From Nitrospirota bacterium (GTDB lineage Bacteria > Nitrospirota > Thermodesulfovibrionia > Thermodesulfovibrionales > SM23-35): 64,000 nt of DNA. Location: the NCBI GenBank assembly GCA_040754395.1, contig JBFMCL010000012.1, positions 1-64,000 of the forward strand, written 5' to 3'. A program made the translations under genes and the position numbers. Below, one piece after another: positions 1-52,237 of this stretch. Positions within the stretch are counted from its first letter, which is position 1. Each line of letters begins with the position of its first letter. The notes beneath the pieces were generated by a model. The model was not told where the DNA came from, searched no databases, and worked only from the letters and a program-made list of their open reading frames with translations.

Positions 1-114
1 CGTGTTATACGAGAAATGCTTTTCGAAAGAAAGGCTATCATAGATATCCTTACATTAAAGCCTGATAGATTAAAAATAAGCGAGGACACTCCTATCCAAG
101 GGGCTCTATTTTAA
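1..114 (+). CDS. C-terminal end of an unidentified protein (cut by window edge)
   Basis: An open frame enters from the left edge and runs 37 codons to a TAA at 112-114. The visible tail is mixed charged and hydrophobic, with a KPDRLKISED stretch before the end. It is too short to assign to a family, and the start lies outside the window. The downstream gene begins 60 bases later with its own putative promoter overlapping this stop codon, so the two are probably transcribed separately. Confidence 0.5.
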   Translation, partial: RVIREMLFERKAIIDILTLKPDRLKISEDTPIQGALF

Positions 115-139
115 CCGGACAGTAATGTCTTCGTATAAT
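111..139 (+). promoter_or_regulatory. Putative sigma-70 promoter for the OsmC-like gene
   Basis: A perfect TATAAT at 134-139 sits 17 bases after TTAACC (111-116), a 4/6 match to the -35 consensus. A second TATAAT follows at 141-146. Expected transcription start is near 146-152, leaving a short leader before the coding start. Confidence 0.4.
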
Positions 140-174
140 GTATAATTACGCATTCAAAGTGCAAGAGAACGGAG

Positions 175-594
175 GTGGTTGGAATAGAGATCAGGATTAC
201 CTTTCCCGGGAAGAAAAAAGTCGATGCTGAACTCAACGGATTCACAATTCACACCGACCAGTTGCCAAAATATGGCGGTGAGGGATCAGCCCCTTCACCA
301 TTCGAACACTTTCTTGCGTCTATCGGCACATGTGCGGGTATTTATGTCCTCAGTTTCTGTGAAGAAAGGAAGATCCCTGCCGGGGATATCTCGCTTGTTC
401 AGCGTCTCGAATACGGAAAAACGGATGATGGCAAGGTATATATCAAAAAAATCGTCATCGAAATTCTTGTTCCCCCGGACTTCCCTGAGAAATATCACAA
501 GGCACTTGTAAAAGTCGCCGAACAGTGTGCAGTGAAAAAAACAATTATGAAACCGCCTGCTTTTGAGGTAAAGACGACTGTAAAACAGCATTAG
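175..594 (+). CDS. OsmC/Ohr-family protein
   Basis: This is a 139-residue OsmC-fold protein, about the usual length for the family. Members are cytosolic dimers, several of which reduce organic hydroperoxides with a pair of cysteines. Here the two family cysteines are visible: C53 in the GTCAG segment and C118 in EQCAV. The KYGGEGSAPSPFE segment before the first cysteine is also typical of OsmC-like proteins. The annotated start is GTG at 175, which overlaps a GGAGG Shine-Dalgarno (171-175). Family members usually begin at the MEIR-like segment, so the real start could be the ATA at 184, correctly spaced from GGAGG. The substrate is unknown. It has no link to the polysaccharide locus downstream. 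Confidence 0.88.
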   Translation: MVGIEIRITFPGKKKVDAELNGFTIHTDQLPKYGGEGSAPSPFEHFLASIGTCAGIYVLSFCEERKIPAGDISLVQRLEYGKTDDGKVYIKKIVIEILVPPDFPEKYHKALVKVAEQCAVKKTIMKPPAFEVKTTVKQH

Positions 595-32004: not shown

Positions 32005-35000
32005 ATGAGGAAGAGAAGAAAAACACTCTATTATCTGGTGTATTGCATGCTGCTGATGAATATTATCGCTGCAGGCACTGCATCAGCCGTGGCAGTATGT
32101 CCTTCTGAGATGCTTCACTACTGGAAGCTCGATGAAGGCAGTGCACCATATGACGACTTTTACGGCACCAACAATGCGACCTGTACTGTCTGTCCTTCTC
32201 CCGTAGCAGGGAGAGTCAACGGCGCCCAGCAGTTCACCGCGACAACCAATGTGTCTGCAGTTGATGACGGCACCTTTGACTGGGACAACTCCCAGAGCTT
32301 TTCCGTGGAAGTATGGATGAAGACTGCCAGCTGCTCGGGAACCGACGTGCTGGTCGGCAGGGATGACAGCGCCACCCCGGTTCACTGGTGGGTGGGATGC
32401 ACCAACGGTATCGCAGAGGCATATCTCATCGATTCCAACAACAACGGCTACGGCGTGGGGGGGACTACCCTCCTTACCGACAACAGCTGGCATCATCTCG
32501 TCTTTGTCAGGAATGCGGCTGCAAACACCATATCTCTTTATGTAGACGGGCAGCTCGAGGATTCGGTCAGCACCGCCTATACCGGAACCTTTAATTCCAC
32601 CGCCGCTCTCAATTTCGGCTGGCTGAATCTTTCCACAGGATACCATTTCTCAGGCGCTCTCGACGAAATTGCGCTCTACAACAGAGCCCTCCCCCTTGCA
32701 GAAATCAGTCAGCATTACAAAGATGGTTCCATCGGGTTACGATGGGGCTATTGTGCCTGCTCCTCTCCGGTCAGAATAATGCAACTTGGCGACTCGATCA
32801 CCTTTGGAGAACCACCGTATGACCCCATACTGGTCAAAGGGTTCAGGCAACCACTGTACCAGTCATTGACAGATGCCGGATATTCATTCGATTTTGTCGG
32901 AAGCATGCAAGATGGAGACATCAGCCTTTTTGACATCGACCACGAGGGACACGGCGGCTGGGCTGCAAAAAGAGAAAGGCCGCCTTACGGAGGCGGCATC
33001 GCACCCTATGTTCAGGGCATCCTCACTACAAATCCTGCTGATGTCGTGCTGCTTCATATCGGGACGAATGATGTGTCTGACGGGCTCGAAAATGCGAATG
33101 ATGTTGCCGAGATACTCGACAATATCGATATTTTGAGCAATGATATAGTGGTAGTCCTTTCAAAAATCATCCGCCGCACAGACGACAAGGCCGTTAAAAC
33201 AACACTCTTTAACAATGCTGTGGGAGCAATGGCGACGACCAGGATTGCCAGCGGCGACAGAATTGTCGTTGTGGATCACGAGAATGCGCTGAATTATTCC
33301 ACTGACATGGCAAGTGTTCTTCATCCCAATCAGACCGGATACAACAAGATGGCCAATGTCTGGTTTAATGCCCTCAGGGCATTTCTCCCTGTCTGTGCAG
33401 AACCTGCTATGCCGCCGTGTCCTTCTGAGATGCTTCACTACTGGAAGCTCGATGAAGGCAGTGCACCATATGACGACTTTTACGGCACCAACAATGCGAC
33501 CTGTACTGTCTGTCCTTCTCCCGTAGCAGGGAGAGTCAACGGCGCCCAGCAGTTCACCGCGACAACCAATGTGTCTGCAGTTGATGACGGCACCTTTGAC
33601 TGGGACAACTCCCAGAGCTTTTCCGTGGAAGTATGGATGAAGACTGCCAGCTGCTCGGGAACCGACGTGCTGGTCGGCAGGGATGACAGCGCCACCCCGG
33701 TTCACTGGTGGGTGGGATGCACCAACGGTATCGCAGAGGCATATCTCATCGATTCCAACAACAACGGCTACGGCGTGGGGGGGACTACCCTCCTTACCGA
33801 CAACAGCTGGCATCATCTCGTCTTTGTCAGGAATGCGGCTGCAAACACCATATCTCTTTATGTAGACGGGCAGCTCGAGGATTCGGTCAGCACCGCCTAT
33901 ACCGGAACCTTTAATTCCACCGCCGCTCTCAATTTCGGCTGGCTGAATCTTTCCACAGGATACCATTTCTCAGGCGCTCTCGACGAAATTGCGCTCTACA
34001 ACAGAGCCCTCCCCCTTGCAGAAATCAGTCAGCATTACAGTAACGGACTGAACGGCTTTGGCTATTGCACGCCAACCTTCACCGTCACCGGTTCCGCACC
34101 CGGCGGACATGGCACTATCTCCTGCGTGCCTTCTACTGTCAACTCGGGCGCTTCCTCCACCTGCACCATGACCCCCGATGCAAACTATCACCTCTCGGCG
34201 CTCACTGACAACGGGACTAATGTCCTCGGTTCGGTCGTCAATAACCAGTACACCATCTTCAACATCACCGCAAACCATACCGTCGTTGCCACCTTCGCCA
34301 TTAACACCTACACCCTTACCGTAGCAAAATCAGGTAAAGGGAACGGTACGGTAACCAGCATTCCTTCAGGAATCAACTGCGGTGGTGATTGTTCTGAAGC
34401 ATTTAATACCGGGACTTCCGTTACCCTTATTGCCACAGCATCCTCTGATTCAAACTTCACCGGATGGAACGGCGGGGGCTGTACGGGCACGGGAAACTGC
34501 ACGGTGATCATGAATAGTGCAGTTACTGTTACCGCCTCGTTTGATGGCAAGTATTTCATATCGGGAACTGTCCGGACGCCGAGCGGCTCAACTCCGGGAA
34601 GTCCTATCCGCGGCGTAACAATCACCCTTGGGGGAGATGCCGGCGGCACTGCCATAACCGATAAAAACGGGTATTATCAGTTCGCGGGATTGCCGAACGG
34701 TAATTACACACTCACCCCCAGTATGCTCAATTATTCATTTACCCCCGCGACCAGAGCTGTCGCATTATCCGAGAGGAATATGTACTCGCAGAATTTCACG
34801 GGAACATATTCTGTGAGTGGCACCCATTCACTGTCCGGCAAAATTCTCACGGCCCAGGGCAGTCCATTATCCGGGGTAACCGTAGCGCTGAACGGAAGCG
34901 CAACAGGCACCACACAGACAGACATCCTCGGCAATTACACATTTTCAGGACTGTCGAACGGGAACTATACCGTCACGCCCGGGATGGCCGGCTATACTTT

Positions 35001-35352
35001 TGCGCCTGAATTCAGAACAGTCACCATCAGCGGGTTCAGTATGTCGGGAATGAACTTTACCGGAACCTTGACAGGCGGAGGGATATACTCAATATCAGGC
35101 ACTGTGCGTTTGCCAAGCGGCGCGTTTCCGGGCAAACCAGTACCGGGCGTCGTGGTATCATTAACAGGAGATTCTACCGGGACCACCACCACGGATAATT
35201 ACGGAAATTATACCTTCAGGTCGCTGCCGAATGGTAATTTCACTATCGCTCCGTCAAAAACAGGGTATACATTTACCCCGACTGAAAGAAATGTCACGAT
35301 AGACAAAAGAAACCTGTATATGCAGGACTTTACTGCGGTGCTGGAACAATAA
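32005..35352 (+). CDS. Secreted LamG-SGNH-LamG protein with beta-repeat C-terminus
   Basis: This 1115-residue exported protein has a signal peptide (residues 1-28). It continues with a LamG-like domain (32-238), an SGNH hydrolase domain (about 257-455), a second LamG-like domain (472-678), two Cys-containing beta-repeat units and three carboxypeptidase-regulatory-like repeats (TDNYGNYTF types). SGNH blocks are visible: GDSITFG with S264, HGG, GTND (353-356) and LHPN with H440. The Asp expected three residues before that His is Ser437; the nearest Asp is D434. The two LamG copies are identical at DNA level. SGNH enzymes often remove acetyl groups from glycans, and LamG domains bind them, so it may edit the exported polysaccharide. 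A strong AGGAGGGG precedes the ATG. Confidence 0.9.
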   Translation: MRKRRKTLYYLVYCMLLMNIIAAGTASAVAVCPSEMLHYWKLDEGSAPYDDFYGTNNATCTVCPSPVAGRVNGAQQFTATTNVSAVDDGTFDWDNSQSFSVEVWMKTASCSGTDVLVGRDDSATPVHWWVGCTNGIAEAYLIDSNNNGYGVGGTTLLTDNSWHHLVFVRNAAANTISLYVDGQLEDSVSTAYTGTFNSTAALNFGWLNLSTGYHFSGALDEIALYNRALPLAEISQHYKDGSIGLRWGYCACSSPVRIMQLGDSITFGEPPYDPILVKGFRQPLYQSLTDAGYSFDFVGSMQDGDISLFDIDHEGHGGWAAKRERPPYGGGIAPYVQGILTTNPADVVLLHIGTNDVSDGLENANDVAEILDNIDILSNDIVVVLSKIIRRTDDKAVKTTLFNNAVGAMATTRIASGDRIVVVDHENALNYSTDMASVLHPNQTGYNKMANVWFNALRAFLPVCAEPAMPPCPSEMLHYWKLDEGSAPYDDFYGTNNATCTVCPSPVAGRVNGAQQFTATTNVSAVDDGTFDWDNSQSFSVEVWMKTASCSGTDVLVGRDDSATPVHWWVGCTNGIAEAYLIDSNNNGYGVGGTTLLTDNSWHHLVFVRNAAANTISLYVDGQLEDSVSTAYTGTFNSTAALNFGWLNLSTGYHFSGALDEIALYNRALPLAEISQHYSNGLNGFGYCTPTFTVTGSAPGGHGTISCVPSTVNSGASSTCTMTPDANYHLSALTDNGTNVLGSVVNNQYTIFNITANHTVVATFAINTYTLTVAKSGKGNGTVTSIPSGINCGGDCSEAFNTGTSVTLIATASSDSNFTGWNGGGCTGTGNCTVIMNSAVTVTASFDGKYFISGTVRTPSGSTPGSPIRGVTITLGGDAGGTAITDKNGYYQFAGLPNGNYTLTPSMLNYSFTPATRAVALSERNMYSQNFTGTYSVSGTHSLSGKILTAQGSPLSGVTVALNGSATGTTQTDILGNYTFSGLSNGNYTVTPGMAGYTFAPEFRTVTISGFSMSGMNFTGTLTGGGIYSISGTVRLPSGAFPGKPVPGVVVSLTGDSTGTTTTDNYGNYTFRSLPNGNFTIAPSKTGYTFTPTERNVTIDKRNLYMQDFTAVLEQ
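32098..32719 (+). repeat. Perfect 622-bp direct repeat, copy 1
   Basis: It is identical base for base to 33418-34039 and begins on the same codon position. It encodes the first LamG-like domain. The copies are offset by 1320 bases (440 codons), so recombination between them would delete one LamG copy plus the SGNH domain without shifting the frame. Confidence 0.97.
33418..34039 (+). repeat. Perfect 622-bp direct repeat, copy 2
   Basis: This is the second identical copy, encoding the second LamG-like domain. Sequence identity stops abruptly on both sides. This indicates recent duplication or ongoing gene conversion, unless it is an assembly error. Confidence 0.97.
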
Positions 35353-44525: not shown

Positions 44526-47312
44526 ATGCAAAAGAGAAAAAAACATATCACTTTTTTCCTTATTAACCTGCTTCTGACATGTTTTCTTTTATCTTCAGGC
44601 TATGCATTTGCGGACGTCATTATCGATAACGGACAGGCAGGCACATCCTATACCGGAACATGGGGAATTTCCGGGGGTACCCTGCCTTATGGCACAAACA
44701 GCCTCTGGTCGAGGGACGGGGCCACGTATACCTGGCAATTCTCTTCACAACCTGCAGGCACATATGAAGTGTACATGTGGTGGTCTGGCTACGCAACGAG
44801 AGCAACAAGCATAGCGGTAGACATCTACCACCGTGACGGGCAAAGCACCGTTACGGTAAATCAGCAGTTGAACGCAGGCCAGTGGAACAGCCTCGGGCAA
44901 TACTATTTTGACACAAGTGGAAGAGTAACAATTATTGCAGCCAATGGCTCCACAGTAAGCACCTGTGCTGATGCGGTACGATTTGCCCCGGTCTCAACGA
45001 ACTCTCCTCCCACCGCGTACATTGACTCAATAACTCCCAATCCGGCAAACCCCGGTCAGACCGTTTCATTCTCAGGGCATGGCACCGACTCCGACGGGAC
45101 GATCGCCGCATATCAGTGGAGTTCAAACATCAACGGTCTCCTCAGCACAGAGAGCGCATTCTCTTCCTCAACCCTCTCTGCAGGAACACATACGATCTCT
45201 TTCAGGGTTCAGGACAATGAGGGGGCATGGTCTGCACCAGTTGCCCAGACACTGCAGGTAGGCGCTCCTCCAGTCGAATACATCATAGACAATGGTGCTG
45301 CAGGCACCTCATTTACTGGCACATGGGCTATTTCAGGAGCTTCAAATCCTTACGCAATAGATTCGGTCTGGAGCCGCGACGGCACCACCTATACCTGGAC
45401 ATTCACTCCTGCGGTTTCAGGAAACTACGACCTCTCCATGTGGTGGACAGTCTGGCCTTCGCGGAGCACAGCCGTGCCTGTTGACATCACCTTCTACGGC
45501 GGAACTTCACGAGTGGTTATCAACCAGCAGCTCAACGGCGGCAAATGGAACCTGCTCGGCAACTTCTCCTTCCTCGCCGGCCAGAGCTACACCGTAAGAA
45601 TAACCTCGCAGCCCGGGCCGTCAAGTACCTGCGCAGATGCGGTCAAATTCTCGCGGGTATCTGACCTGAATGCCCCTCCTGTGGCCACCATCGATTCTGT
45701 CACTCCCAACCCTGCCCTTCCCGGGGAAACCGTAACCTTCACCGGGTCAGGCTCGGATACCGACGGTACGATCACCGGCTACAGCTGGCGCTCCAGCAGA
45801 GACGGCGTAATCGGCACCGCTGCGTCTTTCAGCACCTCGGCCCTCTCAGAGGGAATACACACCATATATTTCAAGGTTCAGGACAACAACGGCGTATGGT
45901 CGCCGGAAATAAGCCATACTCTGAATATCGGCAATCAGGTCTCAAATACCGAACATATATATTTCTGTCTAACATTCTTTGGAGCAAATGACAAAGCCTT
46001 GTTGATTGCAACCTTGCAGGATGTTGGCGCGGTTCAGCAGGGTAATGTCTGGACTTATACAAATAGTGCACTGGGGAAAGATTATGTAATTCATATTGTG
46101 GAAGATATAGAAACCATGAAGCAGGCATTATATACGGAAAATGCGCATGTGATTGTAAAAGGACATTCCAACTACGGACTGGGTGGGGTTTTTATCCCGG
46201 ATTACGCATATGAACATCAAGTGCTCAACAATATTCGGTATATCGATGATGACCTGATTTTTAATTACTCCTCTCCATGGATTTCCGTAAATGTTGCAAG
46301 CTGCATCATAAGTCACGCATTCCCAAACTGGTGGCCAATTCTGCAGGATGGCACAAACGGCATCATGCCATATGATTTTGGGGATCCAAGGGGGAATCCT
46401 CCTTACAATTACTATTTAACCTATCAAATACCCGGCGATCCGAATATTTACAAAGTCGAGACCGTACGAAACAGCGCACGCGAGCGGTTTCCGGATTCAG
46501 GAGTGCCTGCATGGTATTCACCTGACGGCTCAAGCCCGAATCCGTCAAATCCTTCACACCGTCAGTACTATATCACGAACCCTGATAATTCCTTCTTATC
46601 CGCTGGCAGATGGCTTTGGACTAATAATTCTTATGCCGGCAGTCTGACCGGATTCTATGGCTTTCATTATTGCCGCATTAACGCAGGTTCGGGCAGCAGC
46701 CAGGCTTCATGGCGCTTTTCCATACCTGTCAGCGGCAGTTACAATGTATCTGCATGGTGGCCGTCATCTCCGCTTAACACATCTCAAGCCAAGTATACTG
46801 TGAACCATGCCACCGGCAGCACGTTAGTGATGCAAAATCAGCAGGTTAATGGTAGCGTTTGGAACAACCTCGGAACCTTTTCTTTCAATACCGGTGAGTA
46901 TTCAGTAGTACTAACTGACCAATCCGGCTCCGGGCAAATTGTTGCTGATGCAATCCGGGTAACAAATTCTGCAAATCCAAGCATTGATATCACGGTAGAT
47001 AACTCTTTTTGCCCTAAATCACATTATTATAAAAAGTCGATCGTCTTCAGGAGACAGCTTGAAATAGAACCGGAAAAACTGAAATATAAGCGGATGCTGT
47101 ATGATGCATGCACGACAGGAAGCTACTACCTTGAGGCGTTTCAGAGAGGAACCATGTTCTTCACGGTTATTGGCTCGAGGACATATGGGAGCTATAAATA
47201 TCTCAAGGCGTATCTGGAGGGAAAAAGTGATCAGGAGATATGGACAATACTGCAGGCATACGACCCGGTATACGATTATTATTACTTCGATAAATCGCCG
47301 TCAGAACAGTAA
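44526..47312 (+). CDS. Secreted golvesin/PKD protein with split caspase-like domain
   Basis: This 928-residue protein has a signal peptide (1-29). Two golvesin-type beta domains (VIIDNGQAGTSYTG and YIIDNGAAGTSFTG) each precede a PKD-like domain (TPNPANPGQTVSFSGHG, TPNPALPGETVTFTGSG). From about residue 475 a new alpha/beta domain begins: AHVIVKGHSNYGLGG carries H547, with the NVASCIISH strand further on. A third golvesin-like domain interrupts it. The sequence then resumes with LYDACTTGSYYL (C862) and IGSRTYGSYKYLKAYLEG. The His-then-Cys arrangement resembles caspase-like (clan CD) proteases, whose motifs are HG and DxCxSG. Protease activity is only inferred. The golvesin domains are probable carbohydrate or surface binding modules. 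GGGGGA precedes the ATG. Confidence 0.85.
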   Translation: MQKRKKHITFFLINLLLTCFLLSSGYAFADVIIDNGQAGTSYTGTWGISGGTLPYGTNSLWSRDGATYTWQFSSQPAGTYEVYMWWSGYATRATSIAVDIYHRDGQSTVTVNQQLNAGQWNSLGQYYFDTSGRVTIIAANGSTVSTCADAVRFAPVSTNSPPTAYIDSITPNPANPGQTVSFSGHGTDSDGTIAAYQWSSNINGLLSTESAFSSSTLSAGTHTISFRVQDNEGAWSAPVAQTLQVGAPPVEYIIDNGAAGTSFTGTWAISGASNPYAIDSVWSRDGTTYTWTFTPAVSGNYDLSMWWTVWPSRSTAVPVDITFYGGTSRVVINQQLNGGKWNLLGNFSFLAGQSYTVRITSQPGPSSTCADAVKFSRVSDLNAPPVATIDSVTPNPALPGETVTFTGSGSDTDGTITGYSWRSSRDGVIGTAASFSTSALSEGIHTIYFKVQDNNGVWSPEISHTLNIGNQVSNTEHIYFCLTFFGANDKALLIATLQDVGAVQQGNVWTYTNSALGKDYVIHIVEDIETMKQALYTENAHVIVKGHSNYGLGGVFIPDYAYEHQVLNNIRYIDDDLIFNYSSPWISVNVASCIISHAFPNWWPILQDGTNGIMPYDFGDPRGNPPYNYYLTYQIPGDPNIYKVETVRNSARERFPDSGVPAWYSPDGSSPNPSNPSHRQYYITNPDNSFLSAGRWLWTNNSYAGSLTGFYGFHYCRINAGSGSSQASWRFSIPVSGSYNVSAWWPSSPLNTSQAKYTVNHATGSTLVMQNQQVNGSVWNNLGTFSFNTGEYSVVLTDQSGSGQIVADAIRVTNSANPSIDITVDNSFCPKSHYYKKSIVFRRQLEIEPEKLKYKRMLYDACTTGSYYLEAFQRGTMFFTVIGSRTYGSYKYLKAYLEGKSDQEIWTILQAYDPVYDYYYFDKSPSEQ

Positions 47313-47371
47313 TATTATGTTAGGAAAATTCTTGATAACGTCAATTAATACAATTGCGGAGGGTTATGTAC

Positions 47372-48043
47372 ATGAACATTAAGAAAACATTGTTCGCATT
47401 ATTGTTCGTCGGGATATTTACTGCTGCACATGCTCAGGAGCCTGTAAGGCCTGACGTGTCCCGTATGTTCGATTTTGACAGGGAAGCAAAGATAAATCAT
47501 CTCAGCAATATCAGTGCGGAAGAAGCTTTCAACAATCTGACATCGCCAGACTTTATGCTAAACGATGATCTCCTTCACAAAGCAGTATTCAAAGCTTTTG
47601 AATTCAGAAAATCGGATGCGATTGCCATTGTTGTGCAGGCTCTGAGGACAGCGCAGCATCAGTCAGTGAAGAATACGCCGGAAACTGAGAACAGATTATA
47701 TATCTCAAGAAAATTTCTTGAAATCTTCCCTGAAGACACTACTGGAACACTGTTAAAATTATATGCCTCAGCCGATGCACCCACAAGGTCCAGAATTCTC
47801 TATGTGGCAGGCAATATGCCCGGCCAGCCCATCAGAGAACTTCTCATCAAAGCGCTCGACGATAAGACAACCTTTGAGAAAGAGAATCCGGAAATAGCCG
47901 GACTGCCTTTGCGCATTTGCGATGCGGCATATAATCAACTTGTAATTCGCTATAAGATTCAAAATGTTCTCAGGACAATTGGAAACGATTTGACAATCCA
48001 GACCAGAGATTACCATATAAATATCCTCAAAAAGTATTTGTAA
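47372..48043 (+). CDS. Exported helical-repeat protein, unknown function
   Basis: This 223-residue protein has a signal peptide (MNIKKTLFALLFVGIFTAAHA, cleaved after AHA). The mature part is helical, with HEAT-like repeat character (DLLHKAVFKAFEFRKSDAIAIVVQAL and GTLLKLYASADAPTRSRILYVAG). It is probably periplasmic. I do not recognise a named family. GGAGGG (47358-47363) is well spaced for ATG 47372; earlier in-frame starts lack this. It lies 59 bases after the golvesin gene, with a terminator behind it, so the two form a small unit that may act together outside the cytoplasm. Confidence 0.75.
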   Translation: MNIKKTLFALLFVGIFTAAHAQEPVRPDVSRMFDFDREAKINHLSNISAEEAFNNLTSPDFMLNDDLLHKAVFKAFEFRKSDAIAIVVQALRTAQHQSVKNTPETENRLYISRKFLEIFPEDTTGTLLKLYASADAPTRSRILYVAGNMPGQPIRELLIKALDDKTTFEKENPEIAGLPLRICDAAYNQLVIRYKIQNVLRTIGNDLTIQTRDYHINILKKYL

Positions 48044-50773: not shown

Positions 50774-52237
50774 ATGCACCAACATAATCTCCATCCTCCG
50801 ACCTCTTTTTCTGAACAGGGACAGATGCTCAGTTCGTTTGATACGCTTCCTGACGATATGCAAAAGCGTATTGTACAGTCAATTATCATAAATGACAGGA
50901 TGAGCATGGCCGGGCACGAGCTTGGGAGGCTTCATATTATGCTGACCCGTTCACTCTGGCGTTTCAGAAAAAAAATATCAGGCAATCAAATGAACCGCTT
51001 TAAGACGTTATTAGAAATTCTGGCCAGAGCAGCTCAAAGCGGCCCGGCTCATATGCTATATGCCCTGTACCGTCTCAAAAGAAGCTGCCGGGATAATCTT
51101 CTGTCGGATTCAACAATGCAATCTATCGTTGATGCCCGTGGAAAGGATATCAAAGACTATGCGGTCTGCTTTGCCCGGCATATCCCTCAGCTTGAAGCAT
51201 ATCGGGGATTCTGGCATGATCACGCCCGCAATAACTCGTATGGGGTTATCCTTGGGATAGACCTTATTCCGTCTCAGGAAGGCTGCTGGTTCATTGAAAG
51301 TAATCTCAACTTTGGGATGAGCACCACCCGTTCTTCCTTGTATGATACAGATCCATTCGTACAGAATCTTCTCAGATTCACAACAGAAAAGGGATATGGC
51401 AACCTCATGTTTGTCAATAATACCCATGCAAATATGAACAGACGCATGGCTGCTCAGCTTGAGAAAGAAGCCCGGCGCAATAATGTCCAACTGAGTATTG
51501 TCGAAGATGCATATATTCCAGACGCACAGTATGGGCAAAGTTTTGGAATCCCCTCTCTCAAAACGGAAGATACCTTAGTGGTACGTACAAAATTTTACCG
51601 CACCAGTCTCGATTATCTGCTGCAGAACAAACTCGCAAGCAGCAGGGCATTAAGAATCTATCAGCAGAATTCTCCTGAACCCGCCCTTCTGCTCCCGCGA
51701 ACGGAAGCTTCCCCCATTATCAGCAGGAACTTCCTGGATGAACCATTTCCCAATATGGTGATGAAATATCCCGGACATGATGAAGGCAAGGGAATTCTGT
51801 TTCTGAAAGCATCATCAGCAGAACATGCAGCCGAACTTTTAATGCAATCGGGAGAGTCATACCGCCGAAAAGGTTTTATAAACAGGATATACTCTGCAGT
51901 TGAAAACCAGAAGCCAGTATTCCAGCCATACATCCGATCTCATCTTCTTGAAGGAAGAAGACTTTATAAGGTACGCGCGCATATATTACTGGCACCCACC
52001 GGCATTTGCTTTCTCTCAGCCCATCGTGTCACCGCCCGGCACTCCGTACCCCACCACCTGCCATTGGGAATAGTGCATGACTCAAGACCATATCTGGTAA
52101 ACCTTGCTACCAGTTCTGCATATGAAATACTTCCTCCGGATGAGGAAGTCGACGTGAAGAATGCTGCCACGGCTGTAGCAAGGGGGCTGTCATGGGCATT
52201 GTCTTACGGATTTGATATTTATTCTGAAGAACACTGA
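50774..52237 (+). CDS. Putative ATP-grasp-like ligase
   Basis: This 487-residue soluble protein is not firmly recognised. A central segment GVILGIDLIPSQEGCWFIESNLNFGM looks like the substrate/metal loop of ATP-grasp or glutathione-synthetase-like enzymes (acid-x-N-x-N). Later PNMVMKYPGHDEGKGILFLKA resembles the nucleotide-binding lysine strand and flexible loop. The order suggests a permuted or divergent ATP-grasp fold. Such enzymes make amide or peptide bonds with ATP. The next gene, an asparagine-synthetase homologue, starts 15 bases later; the pair probably acts together. Start ATG 50774 follows GGGG at a suitable distance. Confidence 0.6.
   Translation: MHQHNLHPPTSFSEQGQMLSSFDTLPDDMQKRIVQSIIINDRMSMAGHELGRLHIMLTRSLWRFRKKISGNQMNRFKTLLEILARAAQSGPAHMLYALYRLKRSCRDNLLSDSTMQSIVDARGKDIKDYAVCFARHIPQLEAYRGFWHDHARNNSYGVILGIDLIPSQEGCWFIESNLNFGMSTTRSSLYDTDPFVQNLLRFTTEKGYGNLMFVNNTHANMNRRMAAQLEKEARRNNVQLSIVEDAYIPDAQYGQSFGIPSLKTEDTLVVRTKFYRTSLDYLLQNKLASSRALRIYQQNSPEPALLLPRTEASPIISRNFLDEPFPNMVMKYPGHDEGKGILFLKASSAEHAAELLMQSGESYRRKGFINRIYSAVENQKPVFQPYIRSHLLEGRRLYKVRAHILLAPTGICFLSAHRVTARHSVPHHLPLGIVHDSRPYLVNLATSSAYEILPPDEEVDVKNAATAVARGLSWALSYGFDIYSEEH

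Follow-up and report, generated by a model that had tools for sequence, protein, structure and literature searches.

An exported protein of a Nitrospirota bacterium, encoded in the 64,000-nucleotide stretch of DNA analyzed here (the window), carries a C-terminal region (residues 470–928) that we take, with a probability of roughly 0.72, for a clan-CD-like cysteine hydrolase or transpeptidase, nearest to family C11 and probably held on surface glycan, with a golvesin domain lodged in the loop between its predicted catalytic His and Cys and with a small exported partner. The most likely function of the pair is that of an exported His/Cys peptidase or transpeptidase and its accessory protein, an activity and a substrate that we infer. 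The features concerned are as follows.

44526..47312, + strand: exported protein of 928 residues (signal peptide, golvesin, PKD, golvesin, PKD, split caspase-like domain)
45933..46580, + strand: caspase-like domain, N-terminal half (residues 470–685), with H547 and the family-specific conserved stretch
46164..46166, + strand: CAT codon of H547, the predicted catalytic His, invariant in 22/22 proteins
46185-46580: family-specific conserved stretch from the His to the golvesin domain (residues about 554–685)
46590..46964, + strand: inserted golvesin-type domain (residues 689–813) between the His and Cys halves, by Pfam and structural match
46989..47309, + strand: caspase-like domain, C-terminal half (residues 822–928), with C862
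47016..47018, + strand: codon of K831, a hypothetical candidate self-cleavage site, K or R in 22/22 proteins
47109..47111, + strand: TGC codon of C862, the predicted nucleophile, invariant in 22/22 proteins
47354..48043, + strand: secreted partner protein of 229 residues, without a Pfam match

Domain layout of the exported protein

The protein begins with a signal peptide, recognized from sequence, and a Pfam search detects three Golvesin_C (PF25275) and two PKD domains, with a Golvesin_C score of 221.4 bits against a cut-off of 31.6. The best of the three Golvesin_C copies (residues 689–813) lies exactly between the motif of H547, which falls within HVIVKGHSNYGLGG (also given as VIVKGHSNYGLGG), and that of C862, which falls within MLYDACTTGSYY; the two residues are 315 positions apart. 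The initial annotation had described, at 46080–47290, a caspase-like domain split by a golvesin domain in a secreted protein with attached glycan-binding modules, within a polysaccharide locus. Both motifs and the insert between them are present as claimed, and the export signal, the Golvesin_C and PKD modules and the gene content of the window agree with that description. The domain is located correctly but extends slightly further, over residues about 470–928, and the golvesin domain does separate the motifs but shares the gap with a family-specific conserved stretch (residues about 554–685).

Conservation and distribution of the family

The family alignment comprises 22 homologues, 21 of them distinct (L018 and L053 are one gene), with about 36–70% identity; the distinct proteins span three bacterial phyla. 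All 22 share H547 and C862, the latter being the only invariant Cys, and N549, G551 and G553, which follow the His, and R856, which precedes the Cys, are likewise invariant. A dN/dS of 0.24 for two close homologues from two species points to purifying selection. The closest relative, 64–70% identical, comes from a metagenome-assembled genome (MAG) that shares its family with the genome of the window. By eye, a segment resembling SGNH/GDSL esterases (MPLGDSITFG) can also be made out in the polypeptide of the nearest homologue (L001:4632-9911), where it precedes the caspase-like domain.

When a single genome was scanned for each species, eight family loci emerged, in Nitrospirae, Planctomycetota and one Syntrophobacterales MAG. 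Among 395 genomes from the phylum of the window, full-length matches occur in 5, the remaining rows there being golvesin or PKD only; they also occur in one genome of the planctomycete sample (343 genomes) and in 4/345 genomes of a sample around L008. These low counts mark the family as rare and patchy. Whole-genome searches show that some single genomes carry several copies. The viral contigs scanned contained no relatives, and plasmid records matched the golvesin part and nothing else of the protein.

No Pfam or NCBIfam model covers residues 470–685 or 822–928, and the two halves spliced together gave no Pfam peptidase match in a scan at E up to 10, so that what is added here is a probable clan-CD family without a model in either database. 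This failure of the peptidase models to recognize the domain, the glycan-binding-type modules that surround it and the variation of the substrate-pocket position 860 (D in the window protein, D, E, G, S or N across the family and E, G, S or N in most relatives) would all suit a catalytically dead caspase fold that a surface glycoprotein retains for binding or for structure. We consider this unlikely, since pseudoenzymes usually lose one of their catalytic residues, whereas both predicted ones are invariant here in 22/22 proteins, including a member that lacks the insert.

The polysaccharide locus and the partner gene

The window holds a polysaccharide locus with genes for a Wzz-like chain-length protein, glycosyltransferases, a UDP-GlcNAc 2-epimerase, a Wzy_C ligase, an Asn-synthase-like protein and an ABC exporter, and the relatives also lie near polysaccharide genes (Wzt-type ABC exporters, pyruvyl transferase, PGA_cap). 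The partner, an exported protein of 229–250 residues without a convincing Pfam match, is encoded by the next gene in five loci (the window, L001, L014/L051, L018/L053 and L043/L050); five planctomycete proteins (L002, L003, L004, L035 and L054) carry it as a C-terminal fusion to the caspase-like protein. An adjacent or fused partner is a feature of the window's clade, and the gene fusion suggests that the partner acts with the caspase-like protein. In another clade (L005, L006, L008, L048 and L049), a gene for an ATP-grasp ligase lies directly downstream in all five loci.

Asn-synthase-like genes occur in four family loci and, with the ATP-grasp genes immediately downstream in five, they suggest amide-bearing polymers. 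Together with the glycan-binding-type modules of the protein itself, this would be consistent with an enzyme that is not a protease but a transpeptidase or transamidase and that hands its Cys acyl intermediate to an amine on a polysaccharide or peptide, in the manner of the clan-CD GPI transamidase with GPI. Such a restriction to transfer seems improbable, as the analysis turned up neither an acceptor nor a sorting motif and the locus genes could act on the glycan alone. We keep the broader reading of a His/Cys peptidase or transpeptidase.

Predicted fold of the caspase-like domain

The evidence on the fold is one AlphaFold2 model of residues 470–928, built from a 10-sequence alignment, in which H78 and C393 correspond to H547 and C862. 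Its mean pLDDT is 64.9 and its pTM 0.58, the core strands and helices lying mostly at about 85–95; model residues 88–157 and 214–255, which include most of the family-specific conserved stretch, are not resolved. A strand formed by residues 72–76 is followed two residues on by H78 and a second one, formed by residues 387–391, two residues on by C393, so that in this moderate-confidence model the end of one strand carries the His and that of its successor the Cys, as in clan CD. The predicted order of elements, b-a-b-b-a-b-His ... b-Cys-a-b-a-a-b, fits that clan.

In a VIA-align comparison (top 1000 chains), the first match is a xanthan lyase, aligned with the golvesin part at a Z of 13.4, and the second is iotapain (6nag), a secreted C11 peptidase, with a Z of 8.7 and an rmsd of 3.8 over 167 residues within the model range 3..459, which takes in both halves. 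Iotapain is the best match outside the golvesin fold, all carbohydrate-binding module (CBM) matches reaching 7.1 or less; its Z of 8.7 lies only slightly above the noise range of 7–8, and it is the one clan-CD chain among the matches listed. No C14 or C25 chain appears among these listed matches, which golvesin-fold structures fill; the Foldseek top list, dominated by golvesin-like lectin folds, holds no significant clan-CD match, and PDB searches with sequence profiles, built for the complete domain and for its halves separately, retrieved no clan-CD chain. It is the combination of a match spanning both halves with the identity between the residues predicted to be catalytic and the invariant ones that supports a clan-CD-like fold with an H547/C862 dyad, a predicted fold that is, on the same model, more C11-like than gingipain-like. 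The comparison with caspases and gingipains suggested at the outset is supported as to the clan, by the strand-then-His and strand-then-Cys arrangement and the iotapain match over both halves, but the closest fold among the matches listed is that of a C11 peptidase rather than a gingipain.

The moderate confidence of the model, the single clan-CD chain among the matches listed and the want of a profile-level sequence link (by hhalign, which misses C11 against C14 too) could also reflect an accidental resemblance of an unrelated Cys-containing domain, such as another α/β hydrolase or an adhesin, but this is likewise improbable, given that His follows one strand and Cys the next, that precisely these two residues are invariant and that the alignment extends over both halves.

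The golvesin domain as an insertion

The distance from His to Cys falls into three classes: 175 residues in L035, which has no insert, 308–315 residues with a golvesin domain, and 482–512 residues with a golvesin domain and two PKD domains. L035, a planctomycete protein of 688 residues, is the one natural insert-free member; it keeps both motifs, with 7 residues between the aligned half-blocks. With its halves joined in this way, L035 is direct proof that they form one domain into which golvesin has been inserted. The description of a caspase-like domain split by golvesin is upheld by this protein, by the order of elements and by the iotapain alignment over both halves, at the moderate confidence of the model. 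Gene fusion and frameshift were dismissed as origins of the split: the frame is open and conserved, and an insert-free homologue exists. Even L035 retains the conserved stretch that leads from the His motif to the point of insertion (YVDDDR, QAYPNW, PPYNYY, RFPD and WYS). The family tree does not show whether the PKD pair was lost, or acquired, on more than one occasion.

The inserted domain shares its fold with the C-terminal domain of a Paenibacillus xanthan lyase (6f2p; Golvesin_C), at an rmsd of 1.0 and 29% identity, and judging from this fold it may bind glycan. In the lyase the golvesin domain forms the end of the enzyme, whereas here another domain encloses it, with a predicted catalytic residue on either side; in the literature, we found no description of a golvesin domain inside a peptidase.

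Relation to families C11, C14 and C25

The His-Cys dyad characteristic of clan CD is conserved in 22/22 proteins for both residues. In the clan motif, the catalytic His is adjoined by a Gly (His-Gly) and the Cys is preceded by a small residue (PMC12445089). In the present family, the residue after the His is Ser, Ala or Gly, with a Gly preceding the His in most members, and the Cys follows Ala, Ser or Gly, or Ile in one member. PF03415, the C11 model, matched neither the whole protein at E up to 1 nor the spliced halves at E up to 10. The S1 Asp two residues before the Cys has been called conserved throughout C11 (PMC4850288); as the corresponding position 860 is not conserved in the family and no sequence match was obtained, we do not file the family as C11. 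Peptidase_C14 and Peptidase_C25 likewise gave no Pfam match with the whole protein or the spliced halves; with the caspases and metacaspases (C14) and the gingipains (C25), the family shares the clan-level His-Cys dyad. In hhalign, nothing rose above reversed controls against the C11, C14 and C25 profiles, a comparison that says little since C11 against C14 is missed as well; the Cys motif aligns locally, not significantly, with the D-x-C-x-S-G of C14. A separate gingipain-like (C25) protein, L098 (G000:C5:60872-61897), is encoded in a 1759-residue frame of the same genome.

The likeness to the C11 peptidases iotapain (Bacteroides thetaiotaomicron), clostripain and PmC11 consists in the predicted fold, export and the succession of His and Cys at successive strand ends, and D860/C862 of the window protein recalls Asp177/Cys179 of PmC11, with an Asp two residues before the nucleophile in both. 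The His-Cys spacing of 175–512 residues contrasts with 46 in PmC11 and 55 in clostripain (PMC4850288, PMC11296011); the loop of the family is occupied by a conserved stretch of 120–140 residues and by the golvesin and PKD domains. In clostripain and PmC11, an activation loop between His and Cys is self-cleaved (PMC11296011, PMC4850288), and K147 of PmC11 lies 32 residues before Cys179 (PMC4850288). K831, which lies 31 residues before C862 and is basic in 22/22 proteins, resembles K147 in this and is a purely hypothetical candidate for self-cleavage. The family offers natural insertion steps (none, golvesin, golvesin with two PKD domains) in what would be the loop that controls C11 activation.

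Proposed mechanism

We propose that the His half (470–685) and the Cys half (822–928) fold together, with the golvesin domain occupying the loop from the His strand to the Cys strand. Considering its domain types and its locus, the protein would be exported and then anchored on the capsule or exopolysaccharide through its golvesin and PKD modules. C862, activated by H547, would attack an amide bond either of a surface protein or of an amino-acid or peptide portion of the polysaccharide, and the 229-residue partner would work in a complex with the enzyme, as the gene fusion suggests. Since clostripain and PmC11 are activated by self-cleavage of the corresponding loop, the insert may, more speculatively, gate activity by being cleaved or moved on glycan binding. 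If active, such an enzyme would tie capsule assembly directly to proteolysis or amide transfer, and this in bacteria that have received little study.

GPI transamidase is a member of clan CD that passes a Cys acyl intermediate to the amine of GPI. A bolder version of our scheme, which we hold to be very doubtful, would make the proteins a new exported clan-CD family of glycan-gated transamidases, in which the loop golvesin senses nascent capsule and C862, with the fused or adjacent partner, joins a protein or peptide to the polysaccharide; the result would be a bacterial equivalent, on a caspase fold, of GPI transamidase or sortase.

Two further proteins of the locus may be mentioned. The 487-residue product of 50774-52237 has no Pfam or PDB match and is conserved in the syntenic locus L001; its slight resemblance to an ATP-grasp ligase was not supported as an assignment. 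The 1115-residue protein encoded at 32005-35352 combines LamG, GDSL-like, InlB-repeat and carboxypeptidase-regulatory-type domains.
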